From: Tildeniella nuda ZEHNDER 1965/U140 | GTDB taxonomy: Bacteria > Cyanobacteriota > Cyanobacteriia > Leptolyngbyales > Leptolyngbyaceae | Length of the DNA stretch: 64,000 nucleotides | Reading direction: 5' to 3' | Assembly: GCA_019358895.1 (NCBI GenBank) | Contig: JAHHIG010000002.1 | Span: 372,001 to 436,000 of the forward strand | Part shown: positions 44,890 to 47,564 of the stretch, one piece after another | How the letters are laid out: the number at the start of each line of letters is the position of its first letter | Numbering within the stretch: position 1 is the first letter of the stretch | Program-made: the position numbers and the translations under genes | The notes under the pieces: generated by a model | Seen by the model: the letters and a program-made list of their open reading frames with translations, nothing else | Told to the model about the DNA's origin: nothing | Database searches by the model: none

Positions 44890-46140
44890 CTAAAAGACGG
44901 TGCCATCACTCTCGATTTGAATCGGTGGACTGCCGTTGGGGCGCAAAGCAGCGGCAATACGACGACCAGCAGCCCAAGTGCCACCCTGCAGAATTTTGAC
45001 TAAGGGAAGATCAGTTGCAGTGAGGTGGAGCTGCTGTCGCATCGTTTCGGCGATGCGATCGAGCAAAATGACCGTCAGCGCACGCCACTCCACGATCGCC
45101 TCTGAACCAGGCAACTGTGGCTGTTGTAAGACGATCGGGTCTTTAATTTGCAGCAGCCCCAAATCCACACACAAACCGCCATTGCGATATTCTGGCAACC
45201 CTGTAAGAGCCTCTAACCCAGTAATTTCTAAACCCAGTGCTTGCAGTGGCTCCAGCAGAGAGTACGTTAACCACTGCGACAGTTTGTGAAAGGGTACCAG
45301 TTGCGAATGCGGGCGATCGTTCGGTAATGCTGAATGAACCCAAACATCACCGAGATTGACCCCTGCAACGGTAAGTCTTCCAGCCCAAATATCACCGAAA
45401 CCAAACAGCACTGCACTCAAAACGGCACTAGCTTCTAACTGTCCATGCCGGATCTGTCCCAGCAAATAGTTAATTAAGGAGCCAGAACGGGGACTCTGGG
45501 AGCCAAAGACTGTAGGATGCTGCTGGAGCGTCTCTCCTAACCGTTGCAGCAGTTGTAAGCGCCCCTGAATGCCGATTAAGGGATTCTCTGAACTGACCTG
45601 AAAGGCTTCACTCAAGGCAGCTTCAGTGAGCGTTTGCAGCCCGATCGCATCTGCCTGTAACGGTTTTTGGGAATCGCTGGAAAAAATGCCCTGGCAGAAA
45701 GCATGAAAGCTGGCGATCGCCAACCCTTCCGATCGACGTAAGACAAGTCCTGTTTCGGGTTCAATGTACTGCCAGCGATCGCCTGCACCTGCATCCAGCA
45801 ACACGCTGACGATCGCTAGATCAAACTTTGCCTGAGCTTTTTCTAGCGGTGTCAAGCCGTCCAGTTTTGCTTCAAGGTTTACCAGTCGAGGCTGTCCATC
45901 CGCTTCAAAATGTCGCCAACGGCTGTGAAACGGCACATTCAAATCAGGGTAACTTTCACGAGTGATCTGAATCACATAGTCAGCGACCCGCTCCAACTGG
46001 CTCAGGTCGCAGCGAAAGTAACGAAGTTTGTCGGCACACGCCAACTCAAACAGTTGTCCGCAACGCTCCCGAACGGCGATCGGAGAGCGGAGATAGGCGA
46101 TCGCAGCAGCATCGTCTGCATTCAGCGGTTTAACGGTCAT
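44890..46140 (-). CDS. URC4-like protein (DUF1688)
   Basis: About 416 residues from ATG 46140, preceded by GTGGAGGGA; ATG 46143 and GTG 46152 are alternatives. LNADDAAAIAYLRSPIAVRE, VPFHSRWRHFEADGQPRLVN, DAGAGDRWQYIEPETGLVLR and HSQLVPFHKLSQWLTYSLLE, with FLAVV/GLCVDLGLLQIKDP, fit the DUF1688 family that includes yeast URC4 of the uracil catabolism (URC) pathway, whose exact reaction is not known to me. The next gene upstream on the same strand is a URC1-like GTP cyclohydrolase II homologue, 141 bases away, strengthening the assignment. Confidence 0.88.
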   Translation of the reverse strand: MTVKPLNADDAAAIAYLRSPIAVRERCGQLFELACADKLRYFRCDLSQLERVADYVIQITRESYPDLNVPFHSRWRHFEADGQPRLVNLEAKLDGLTPLEKAQAKFDLAIVSVLLDAGAGDRWQYIEPETGLVLRRSEGLAIASFHAFCQGIFSSDSQKPLQADAIGLQTLTEAALSEAFQVSSENPLIGIQGRLQLLQRLGETLQQHPTVFGSQSPRSGSLINYLLGQIRHGQLEASAVLSAVLFGFGDIWAGRLTVAGVNLGDVWVHSALPNDRPHSQLVPFHKLSQWLTYSLLEPLQALGLEITGLEALTGLPEYRNGGLCVDLGLLQIKDPIVLQQPQLPGSEAIVEWRALTVILLDRIAETMRQQLHLTATDLPLVKILQGGTWAAGRRIAAALRPNGSPPIQIESDGTVF

Positions 46141-46204
46141 CATTCCCTCCACTCAGCACTTAGCAAAAATAAGCTCAGGTTGTTGAAAGCCGACCATCAA
46201 GTCG

Positions 46205-46275
46205 ATCTTGCGCCCGTCGCTGACCGCTGATCGCTGACCGCTGACCGCTGACCGCTGACCGCTGGTCGCCGACCG
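46205..46275. repeat. Heptamer STRR between the two URC-like genes
   Basis: Repeats of GACCGCT (about seven copies) lie in the gap between the stop of the URC1-like gene and the start of the URC4-like gene. Confidence 0.92.
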
Positions 46276-46280
46276 CTCAT

Positions 46281-47564
46281 CTAATCACTCAGATCACGAC
46301 CTTTAACCGCTGCCAAAATCGCCTCGGTCGGCACTTGTCCTTCGGTATAGTATCCGGCGGCTTTCTTCGCCTCAATTTCAACCTGGGCATCGGCTGGGAT
46401 CAAGTCAGCAGGAATCGGAACGCGTTCGACGACAGTAATCCCTGACTTGGTAATGGCATCAAATTTCATGTTGCTCATGGAGATCAGGCGATCGATGCGA
46501 GTGATGCCGAGCCAATGCAGCACATCGGGCATGAGTTCCTGGAAGCGCATGTCCTGCACGCCTGCAACGCATTCTGTCCGGGCAAAGTAAGCATCCGCAC
46601 GATCGCCCCCTTCCTGCCGTTTACGGGCGTTGTAGACCAAAAACTTCGTGACTTCGCCCAGCGCTCGACCTTCTTTGCGGAAATAGACGATGACACCCGC
46701 TCCGCCTGCTTGCGCTGTCTGTATGCAGCCCTCAATGCCATGCACCAGATACGGGCGACAGGTACAAATATCAGACCCAAACACATCAGAGCCATTGCAC
46801 TCATCGTGGATACGTACCGCAAGCTCGCGATCGGGATCGGTAATCGCAGCTACATCACCGACGATGTAGACTGTCATACCCCCGATCGGCGGCAGAAAGA
46901 CGCGTAAATCCGGTCGCGTTACCAGCTCCGGAAACATCCCACCTGTCTGCTCAAACAAAGCCCGTCGCAGTGTCGATTCACTGACTGCCAACCGTTTAGC
47001 AAGCCCTGGTAAGTACCAGACAGGCTCGATCGCTGCCTTCGTGACTACCAGATCCCCATTCGCCTTCATAATGGTGCCATCAATCTTGAGGCGACCCTTT
47101 GCTGCCGCCTCCTGAAGTTCCGGCATATTGATATGCGCTTTGGTAATGGCGATCGTCGGACGGATATCGTAGCCCTGCTCATATAGAGGCTGATAGACTT
47201 CTCCAACGATCGCGCCAAAAGGATCGAGCGAAACAATTTTTTCTGGATCTGACCAAGCGGGATGCGGTCCCAGAAGTGCTGCTGGGGAAGTATTGGTCAG
47301 ATCTGCCCGGTGATCAGACTGCAACTGACCGCTGGCAACTGCCAACGCTCGATAAACGCCATACGCTCCAGAGTGGCTGCCAATCACATTACGCTGGGCT
47401 GCGTTTGTCAGAGTGCCAACAATAGCTCCACGCACCAGCGGATCTGCTTCACCCCACTGAATCGAAATTGGTTTGACCCCAAAACGGGCAGGATGAGACG
47501 TAAGTACAATGTGTTTCGCTTGAGACCCTGTTTTTTCGCTTGACCCTGTTTTTTCACTCGACAT
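46281..47564 (-). CDS. URC1-like GTP cyclohydrolase II family protein
   Basis: About 427 residues from ATG 47564 (open frame to 47684). The zinc-binding motif CNGSDVFGSDICTC (C-x10-C-x-C) and GVIVYFRKEGRALGEVTKFL identify a GTP cyclohydrolase II fold. It is about twice the length of riboflavin-pathway RibA. GGDRADAYFARTECVAGVQD and MRFQELMPDVLHWLGITRID are the features I associate with the URC1 branch linked to uracil catabolism. The first residues carry a duplicated SSEKTG from an 18-base tandem repeat. The URC4-like gene follows on the same strand; a uracil phosphoribosyltransferase, the third part of the pathway, is not in the window. Confidence 0.85.
   Translation of the reverse strand: MSSEKTGSSEKTGSQAKHIVLTSHPARFGVKPISIQWGEADPLVRGAIVGTLTNAAQRNVIGSHSGAYGVYRALAVASGQLQSDHRADLTNTSPAALLGPHPAWSDPEKIVSLDPFGAIVGEVYQPLYEQGYDIRPTIAITKAHINMPELQEAAAKGRLKIDGTIMKANGDLVVTKAAIEPVWYLPGLAKRLAVSESTLRRALFEQTGGMFPELVTRPDLRVFLPPIGGMTVYIVGDVAAITDPDRELAVRIHDECNGSDVFGSDICTCRPYLVHGIEGCIQTAQAGGAGVIVYFRKEGRALGEVTKFLVYNARKRQEGGDRADAYFARTECVAGVQDMRFQELMPDVLHWLGITRIDRLISMSNMKFDAITKSGITVVERVPIPADLIPADAQVEIEAKKAAGYYTEGQVPTEAILAAVKGRDLSD

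Follow-up and report, generated by a model that had tools for sequence, protein, structure and literature searches.

What does a double-length homologue of GTP cyclohydrolase II do beside a DUF1688 gene in a cyanobacterium? The question is raised by two genes of Tildeniella nuda ZEHNDER 1965/U140 that lie within a window of 64,000 nucleotides (G000:C11:372001-436000), the whole stretch of DNA analysed here, in a genome of 6.08 Mb and 38 contigs. The first gene, of the URC1 type (UTP cyclohydrolase/GTP cyclohydrolase II homologue), occupies positions 46281–47564 on the minus strand (ATG at 47564, stop at 46281, 427 aa). It is followed on the same strand, after a gap of ~130–140 bp, by a URC4/urg3-type DUF1688 gene at 44890–46152. 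The listed open reading frame (ORF) of the latter begins at GTG 46152 and encodes 420 aa; an ATG at 46140 behind a GGAGG, picked by eye, is the likelier start. A preliminary description had read the two genes as a sign of uracil catabolism by the URC pathway. This reading is supported by the families of both proteins, the clade of URC1, a dedicated uracil phosphoribosyltransferase (UPRT) and a separate riboflavin enzyme in the genome, and the pair very probably forms the core of a bacterial URC pathway whose whole route turns uracil into urea.

Pfam and NCBIfam profiles bear out the preliminary identification of the two genes. URC1 contains a GTP_CH_N domain (PF12471, residues 17–206, E 6.1e-85) alongside a GTP_cyclohydro2 domain (PF00925, residues 236–383, E 1.4e-17), which accounts for its double length. 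The NCBIfam model NF005536/PRK07198 scores 757.7 bits on URC1 against a cut-off of 403, while all six RibA/RibBA-type NCBIfam models stay under theirs (for example, TIGR00505 with 62.3 versus 205.85 and NF001591 with 65.8 versus 148). The URC4 protein matches DUF1688 (PF07958) with 519.8 bits over the full profile (residues 20–420 on profile positions 1–420), and its relatives are named 'URC4/urg3 family protein' in RefSeq.

In a tree of the cyclohydrolase domain, a single branch with 100/100 support separates 18 URC1 rows from 11 riboflavin rows, namely 10 cyanobacterial RibBA proteins (this genome's among them) and E. coli RibA; no fungal URC1 is among the rows. From another set of 13 URC1 rows, four were omitted: L149 and L208, whose URC1 tblastn range contains a stop, and, to be on the safe side, L152 and L207. 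The RibBA of this genome is encoded elsewhere (G000:C34:142026-142526, 257.3 bits), so that a separate riboflavin GTP cyclohydrolase is present. Of the two outcomes that the preliminary description would have taken as refutation, grouping with riboflavin enzymes and lack of another such cyclohydrolase, neither holds. The nearest solved structures of URC1 are PDB 7eev and 7ej3 (E 1.9e-185 by sequence); the entries carry the molecule name GTP cyclohydrolase II and the titles 'Structure of UTP cyclohydrolase' and 'UTP cyclohydrolase'. Six residues of URC1 (Cys256, Cys267, Cys269, Tyr311, Asp338, and Arg340) are invariant in the 18 URC1 proteins and align with E. coli RibA (2bz0). From what is known of the E. 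coli enzyme, we take the three cysteines to be zinc ligands and Tyr311, Asp338, and Arg340 to be catalytic. The three cysteines lie in the motif CNGSDVFGSDICTC, encoded at 46758–46799 on the minus strand.

The two families occur together across the phylum. Among 386 genomes, DUF1688 was found in 33 and NF005536 above its cut-off in 30, and all of the 30 (hereafter, pair genomes) are within the 33. The Fisher p value for this co-occurrence is ~1e-41 with relatedness ignored. The remaining three DUF1688 genomes (G039, G334, and G354) have a DUF1688 gene with stops and a broken or missing URC1, both genes being damaged in G039 and G354. This is shared decay of URC1 and DUF1688, which counts for a link in one pathway. 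Short partial URC1 matches, probably remnants, are all that was found in at least five further genomes (G125, G167, G278, G320, and G352). In G215, one of the 30, URC1 is in two overlapping pieces, likely through a frame break or an assembly error. URC1 and URC4 are directly adjacent on one strand in 16 pair genomes and within ~1.5 kb of each other in six more.

The arrangement extends well beyond the phylum. A scan of named genomes gave at least 571 URC4 relatives, the best 80 of which were used as named loci. In 70 of these 80 loci, tblastn placed URC1 no more than 1.5 kb upstream of URC4 and on its strand; UPRT was found downstream in 62, and both genes were so placed in 58; the ORF-based map lacked URC4 in nine of the 80, where a longer ORF displaced it, and the tblastn counts were used instead. 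Of the 25 loci from outside the cyanobacteria by title, 24 have URC1 upstream and 23 have UPRT downstream. Plasmid records matching URC4 number 13 (seven from Azospirillum, four from Cupriavidus, and one each from Pseudoroseomonas and Gordonia), and the annotated ones call it 'URC4/urg3 family protein'. Three annotated plasmid stretches, from Azospirillum, Pseudoroseomonas, and Gordonia, read GTP cyclohydrolase II–URC4/urg3–upp; the two Cupriavidus stretches fetched carry no annotation. URC1–URC4–UPRT is thus a known, widespread operon and not a cyanobacterial oddity. The preliminary description had thought the pair notable for occurring in a cyanobacterium, a point that falls away with 30 of 386 genomes of the phylum carrying it as well as proteobacteria, an actinobacterium, myxococci, and a planctomycete. 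Among the best 80 of the at least 571 relatives, the closest named relatives of this URC4 are from Lyngbya sp. HA4199-MV5 (80%), Stenomitos rutilans HA7619-LM2 (78%), and Leptolyngbya sp. FACHB-36 (75%).

A UPRT of the type that accompanies the pair was sought in this genome and found on another contig. In a PF14681 scan of the phylum, the 26 top-scoring UPRTs all came from pair genomes. A tree of 49 UPRTs puts these 26 (16 linked to the URC genes and 10 unlinked) in one clade with 100/100 support; the 23 general UPRTs outside it come from pair genomes (11) and from genomes in which URC1 is not above the cut-off (12). Two of the 25 general-UPRT regions fetched (L100 and L101) gave no tree row, a longer ORF having displaced the UPRT. 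'URC-type' here denotes membership of the clade that holds the URC-linked bacterial UPRTs, yeast URC6 being outside the comparison. A URC-type UPRT is present in 26 of the 30 pair genomes, this one included (G000:C23:15943-16551; L103:9438-10130); in 16 of the 30 its gene is no more than ~1.5 kb away from URC4 or URC1. On contig C23, the UPRT gene of this genome is followed (L103:2820-10130) by an aliphatic amidase gene (NF009802, 712.6 bits) and then by CbiM/CbiN/CbiQ/CbiO genes for nickel or cobalt uptake. This neighbourhood suggests a nitrogen and nickel cluster, the nickel possibly serving urease.

These components can be arranged into a route of six steps. The dedicated UPRT, unlinked here on contig C23, would make UMP from uracil, and kinases would convert it to UTP. 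URC1, a member of the GTP cyclohydrolase II fold family acting as a zinc UTP cyclohydrolase, would then open the uracil ring by hydrolysis. The C3 part may leave as malonate semialdehyde, so that N-ribosylurea 5′-phosphate would remain. URC4/DUF1688, with the fold of DUF2419/QNG1, would hydrolyse the N-ribosyl bond to give urea and ribose 5-phosphate. Urease could release ammonia from the urea, and a CoA-acylating malonate-semialdehyde dehydrogenase could make acetyl-CoA from the C3 part. Sequence or model provides what both genes are, the conserved URC1–URC4–UPRT order, the URC-type UPRT, the predicted URC4 fold, and the genes for urease and the dehydrogenase. The UTP cyclohydrolase name of URC1's nearest relative and ribosylurea as the yeast intermediate before URC4 come from the work of others. 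We infer the chemistry of the third and fourth steps, what becomes of the C3 part in this organism, and that uracil serves as a nitrogen source. According to PMC7530994, yeast URC1 and URC6 give ribosylurea and 3-hydroxypropionate, URC4 gives urea, and the pathway feeds nitrogen; 'ribosyl-urea degrading' is said of URC4 in PMC8709784. The URC pathway is named beside Rut in PMC12507026, which cites Andersen et al. 2008 and Zhang et al.

Several observations weigh against assigning this route to the pair. The UPRT of this genome is not linked to the URC1–URC4 pair in the window, and the PF14681 scan found no URC-type UPRT in four of the 30 pair genomes (G062, G195, G203, and G336). URC1 and URC4 lie apart in eight of the 30, and the co-occurrence statistic leaves the relatedness of the genomes out of account. 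No urease alpha match was found in one pair genome, G338. The structure model of URC1 is poor (pLDDT 50.5, from nine sequences); its sole use was to point, through matches at 64–65% identity, to PDB entries whose titles could be read.

The fourth step rests on the predicted fold of URC4. An AlphaFold2 model built from 47 sequences has a pLDDT of 93.6 and a pTM of 0.92. In Foldseek, DUF2419 queuosine salvage enzymes were alone in matching the model at E ≤0.001 (11 chains, E 8.4e-9 to 2.0e-7). VIA-align superimposed the model on the DUF2419 structure 7uk3 with a Z score of 28.5 and an rmsd of 2.8 over 312 of 319 residues; next came DNA glycosylases, with Z scores of 11.2 and below. Profile comparison points the same way. 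When the 47 URC4 proteins were searched at E up to 10, Q_salvage (PF10343) was the sole further family found in more than one of them, in 26 of the 47 with a best E of 1.6e-5. By hhalign, the 47 URC4 proteins matched two DUF2419 sequences with a probability of 92 (E 6.5e-7 for one target). In the controls, 55 unrelated ORFs (60 drawn, five excluded as URC4 itself) reached at most 1.1, three other alignments at most 3.1, and the two DUF2419 sequences alone 56 and 33.

The hhalign alignment locates a predicted active-site stretch of URC4, from Lys290 (45283–45285) to Glu321 (45190–45192) of the 420-aa ORF, that is, positions 45190–45285 on the minus strand. Lys290 is paired with DUF2419 Lys199, and Glu321-Tyr-Arg with Asp231-Tyr-Lys. 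Lys290, Glu321, Tyr322, and Arg323 are invariant in all 47 URC4 proteins. The PDB holds solved K199C and D231N mutants of DUF2419, and its titles include complexes with queuosine 5′-monophosphate. DUF2419 cleaves the N-ribosyl bond of queuosine 5′-monophosphate. On the basis of the structural model, the reaction that we predict for URC4 is the cleavage of ribosylurea phosphate into urea and ribose phosphate. An N-ribosidase would account for both the DUF2419 fold and the yeast URC4 step from ribosylurea to urea. URC4 is a relative of DUF2419 and not a member, since it fails the family score, is longer, and has Glu in place of Asp.

This prediction has to be weighed against the tentative possibility that URC4 has the DUF2419 fold and a different chemistry, for instance that of an isomerase or hydrolase of the ureido side chain, with another enzyme cutting the ribosyl bond. 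Some features of URC4 speak for such a function and against an N-ribosidase. All 47 URC4 proteins have Glu where DUF2419 has its catalytic Asp231, and the reaction could therefore differ from that of DUF2419. URC4 is ~80–100 residues longer, and some of its invariant positions fall beyond the hhalign match. The URC4 model also resembles a phage enzyme with the title glycinyltransferase (8z2n, Z 7.0), which means that a glycosylase-like fold need not bring glycosylase activity. The URC4 of the window scores 15.8 bits (E 0.01) against PF10343, under the gathering score of 25, and a sequence search of URC4 against the PDB returned nothing up to E 10; the likeness to DUF2419 came to light only by fold and profile comparison. 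The yeast work, by contrast, places URC4 at the conversion of ribosylurea to urea, which is an N-ribosyl cleavage (PMC7530994 and PMC8709784), and the lysine is kept in URC4, likewise the tyrosine and the basic residue after the acidic one. The literature searched listed no title dealing with the mechanism of URC4; most subscription journals were outside it and the DUF1688–DUF2419 link was not itself sought.

A Q_salvage search of this genome and five others gave no match in any of the six, but the controls gave none either, so that absence does not follow; a search for DUF2419 on plasmids likewise returned none. A PF10343 homologue (138 bits) is present on a 296-kb viral metagenome contig (L211:1698-2654, minus strand).

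Neighbouring genes bear on the fate of the C3 part. In three cyanobacteria (G157, G255, and G262), the gene next after the URC-type UPRT encodes a CoA-acylating methylmalonate-semialdehyde dehydrogenase (MMSDH; TIGR01722, 547–550 bits versus a cut-off of 448.5). A dehydrogenase above the same cut-off (454–501 bits) lies directly upstream of URC1 in all five of the 80 named loci with myxococcal or deltaproteobacterial titles. TIGR01722 scores above its cut-off in 15 of the 30 pair genomes, this one included, versus none of 30 genomes without the pair, the latter hand-picked from the same class and not a random sample. This linkage in two phyla, together with the 15-versus-0 count, suggests that the C3 product is malonate semialdehyde and that it ends as acetyl-CoA where MMSDH is present. 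Against this, no MMSDH exceeds the cut-off in the other 15 pair genomes, which means that the step is not general. The MMSDH gene is not adjacent to the UPRT gene in 12 of the 15 genomes that have it, and in ten such unlinked regions that were fetched, this genome's included, no neighbour was common to more than three.

Does the route supply nitrogen? The preliminary description had thought the pairing notable for nitrogen use. Urease alpha is encoded in this genome (G000:C32:15561-15914) and in 29 of the 30 pair genomes. It also scores above the cut-off in 208 of the 386 genomes of the phylum, and because it is so common its co-occurrence is weak evidence; as a discriminating partner of the pair, urease was therefore set aside. 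Two other pyrimidine routes were searched for in this genome. RutA gave nothing above the cut-off, the best match (56.1 versus 498.3 bits) being an NtaA/DmoA-type monooxygenase. Dihydropyrimidinase also gave nothing above the cut-off, the best match (213.4 versus 393.25 bits) being identified by NF005751 (753.2 bits) as a dihydroorotase; the search did not extend to dihydropyrimidine dehydrogenase.

A possible regulatory signal was found upstream of URC1 in related genomes. The 14-bp box GTAN8TAC, which we take to be an NtcA box, occurs in 29 of 72 regions upstream of URC1, versus a mean of 3.65 and a maximum of 12 in 200 runs of a Markov background. The sample contains many close relatives and some organisms twice. 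Of 27 boxes lying more than 100 nt upstream of URC1, 17 are followed 18–26 nt downstream by TAN3T, compared with 23% at random positions. NtcA control was also considered for the window itself and rejected: two GTAN8TAC sites at 46840–46879 lie inside URC1, and the window as a whole has seven sites versus 4.5 expected, close to a chance number.

These data bear on a further alternative, namely that the pathway serves to control pyrimidine salvage or to remove damaged or surplus uridine nucleotides and does not supply nitrogen, which we consider unlikely. Several observations speak for it. No GTAN8TAC is present between window positions 46880 and 49683, and hence none upstream of URC1; for this genome the case for nitrogen use is thus indirect, the box of its relatives being absent. 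The box is not specific, as it is over-represented upstream of URC4 too (16 of 80 versus a mean of 2.93). Many of these URC4-upstream boxes are 160–300 nt out, a distance that in related genomes places them within or close to the URC1 end, so that the Markov background is too lenient for related sequences. The carriers of the box are mostly Nostoc-like relatives and hence not independent. The URC4 family is kept in Nostoc and Fischerella; these fix dinitrogen, so other nitrogen sources are available to them. By eye, no urease gene stands beside the pair in the ORF maps of the window and the pair loci. For nitrogen supply, on the other hand, speak the enrichment upstream of URC1 with its TAN3T spacing, the dedicated UPRT, which acts on free uracil, and the yeast pathway, which feeds nitrogen (PMC7530994).

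The reading of URC1 as a second GTP cyclohydrolase II of the riboflavin pathway, with DUF1688 as an unrelated neighbour, is very improbable: the PF00925 match, the zinc and catalytic residues that align with RibA, and the name 'GTP cyclohydrolase II' in public records and in NF005536 itself would fit it, but the RibA-type NCBIfam models are far under their cut-offs, URC1 has its own clade, RibBA is already in the genome, the nearest structures are titled UTP cyclohydrolase, and URC1 co-occurs strictly with DUF1688.

The URC pathway from uracil to urea remains the best explanation of the pair, and a more detailed proposal, to which we would give even chances, can be attached to it. In this proposal URC4 would be a small-molecule N-ribosidase of the QNG1/HhH-GPD glycosylase superfamily that cuts N-ribosylurea 5′-phosphate; the URC variant of many bacteria would end in acetyl-CoA through malonate-semialdehyde dehydrogenase and not in 3-hydroxypropionate; and heterocystous cyanobacteria would place it under nitrogen control of the NtcA type.

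Other genes recur near the URC genes. A homologue of class III nucleotide cyclases (PF00211; the L070 copy scores 69 bits) is encoded between the two URC genes or, in L070:6396-7508, next to URC1; the remaining loci are L052:8744-9826, L053, L060, L062, L064, L065, L136, L139, L142, and L146, and its named carriers are three Microcoleus and one Tychonema. It is possibly a nucleotide signal tied to uracil use. An NMT1/SsuA-like ABC transporter is found near URC genes in L047:10722-13382 (binding protein, ATPase, and permease) and L043:11204-12268 (binding protein), and is a candidate pyrimidine importer. A ureidoglycolate-lyase-like protein (PF04115 relative) was considered as a URC component and rejected; although 26 of the 30 pair genomes have it, so do 77 of the remaining 356, and it is thus not dedicated to the pathway. 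Its gene adjoins URC or UPRT genes in seven loci (L048:12250-12789, L049:11507-11995, L050, L063, L078, L109, and L110), and the three copies scanned are all under the AllA cut-offs.

In the window, the URC1–URC4 gap contains a 7-bp tandem array of CGCTGAC at 46218–46277 (8.6 copies; Tandem Repeats Finder score 92). Further short 7-bp arrays lie upstream of URC1 at 47794–47825 and 47947–47970, the types overall being CGCTGAC and AGCTTTC. About 4 kb from URC1, a 1080-aa ORF on the minus strand (51379–54621) has, by eye from its translation, the look of a carbamoyl-phosphate synthase large subunit.

What goes beyond existing annotation is the prediction of URC4 as an N-ribosidase, the link to the dehydrogenase, and the URC-type UPRT. 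Pfam still describes DUF1688 as of unknown function, and it is on this family that the URC pathway depends for its last nitrogen-releasing step. A confident URC4 model that matches an N-ribosidase reduces the question to a one-enzyme assay with two named residues. If true, the prediction would connect the breakdown of uracil by fungi and many bacteria with the glycosylase fold of queuine salvage and DNA repair. For cyanobacteria, it would provide a testable route from uracil, for example from lysed cells, through urea to urease, and the named loci show which strains carry the operon.

The same three families (GTP cyclohydrolase II homologue, UPRT, and DUF1688) make up the URC system of Lachancea kluyveri and the urg1–urg2–urg3 system of Schizosaccharomyces pombe. 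The S. pombe genes are clustered and uracil-induced according to PMC2174524, whereas the UPRT gene of this genome is unlinked. For yeast, PMC7530994 gives urea amidolyase as the enzyme for urea and 3-hydroxypropionate as the C3 product; this genome has urease (urea amidolyase was not searched here), and half of the pair genomes have malonate-semialdehyde dehydrogenase. The bacterial GTP cyclohydrolase II–URC4/urg3–upp operons of Azospirillum, Pseudoroseomonas, and Gordonia have the same order and families, of which the window, from another taxon, holds the first two genes only. URC1 is 64–65% identical to the UTP cyclohydrolases 7eev and 7ej3 in the Foldseek alignment. URC4 shares the fold, as predicted by its model, and the catalytic lysine of DUF2419 QNG1, the queuosine-5′-monophosphate N-ribosidase; it differs from that enzyme in being ~80–100 residues longer, in having Glu for Asp231, in scoring under the Q_salvage cut-off, and in coming from a uracil operon.

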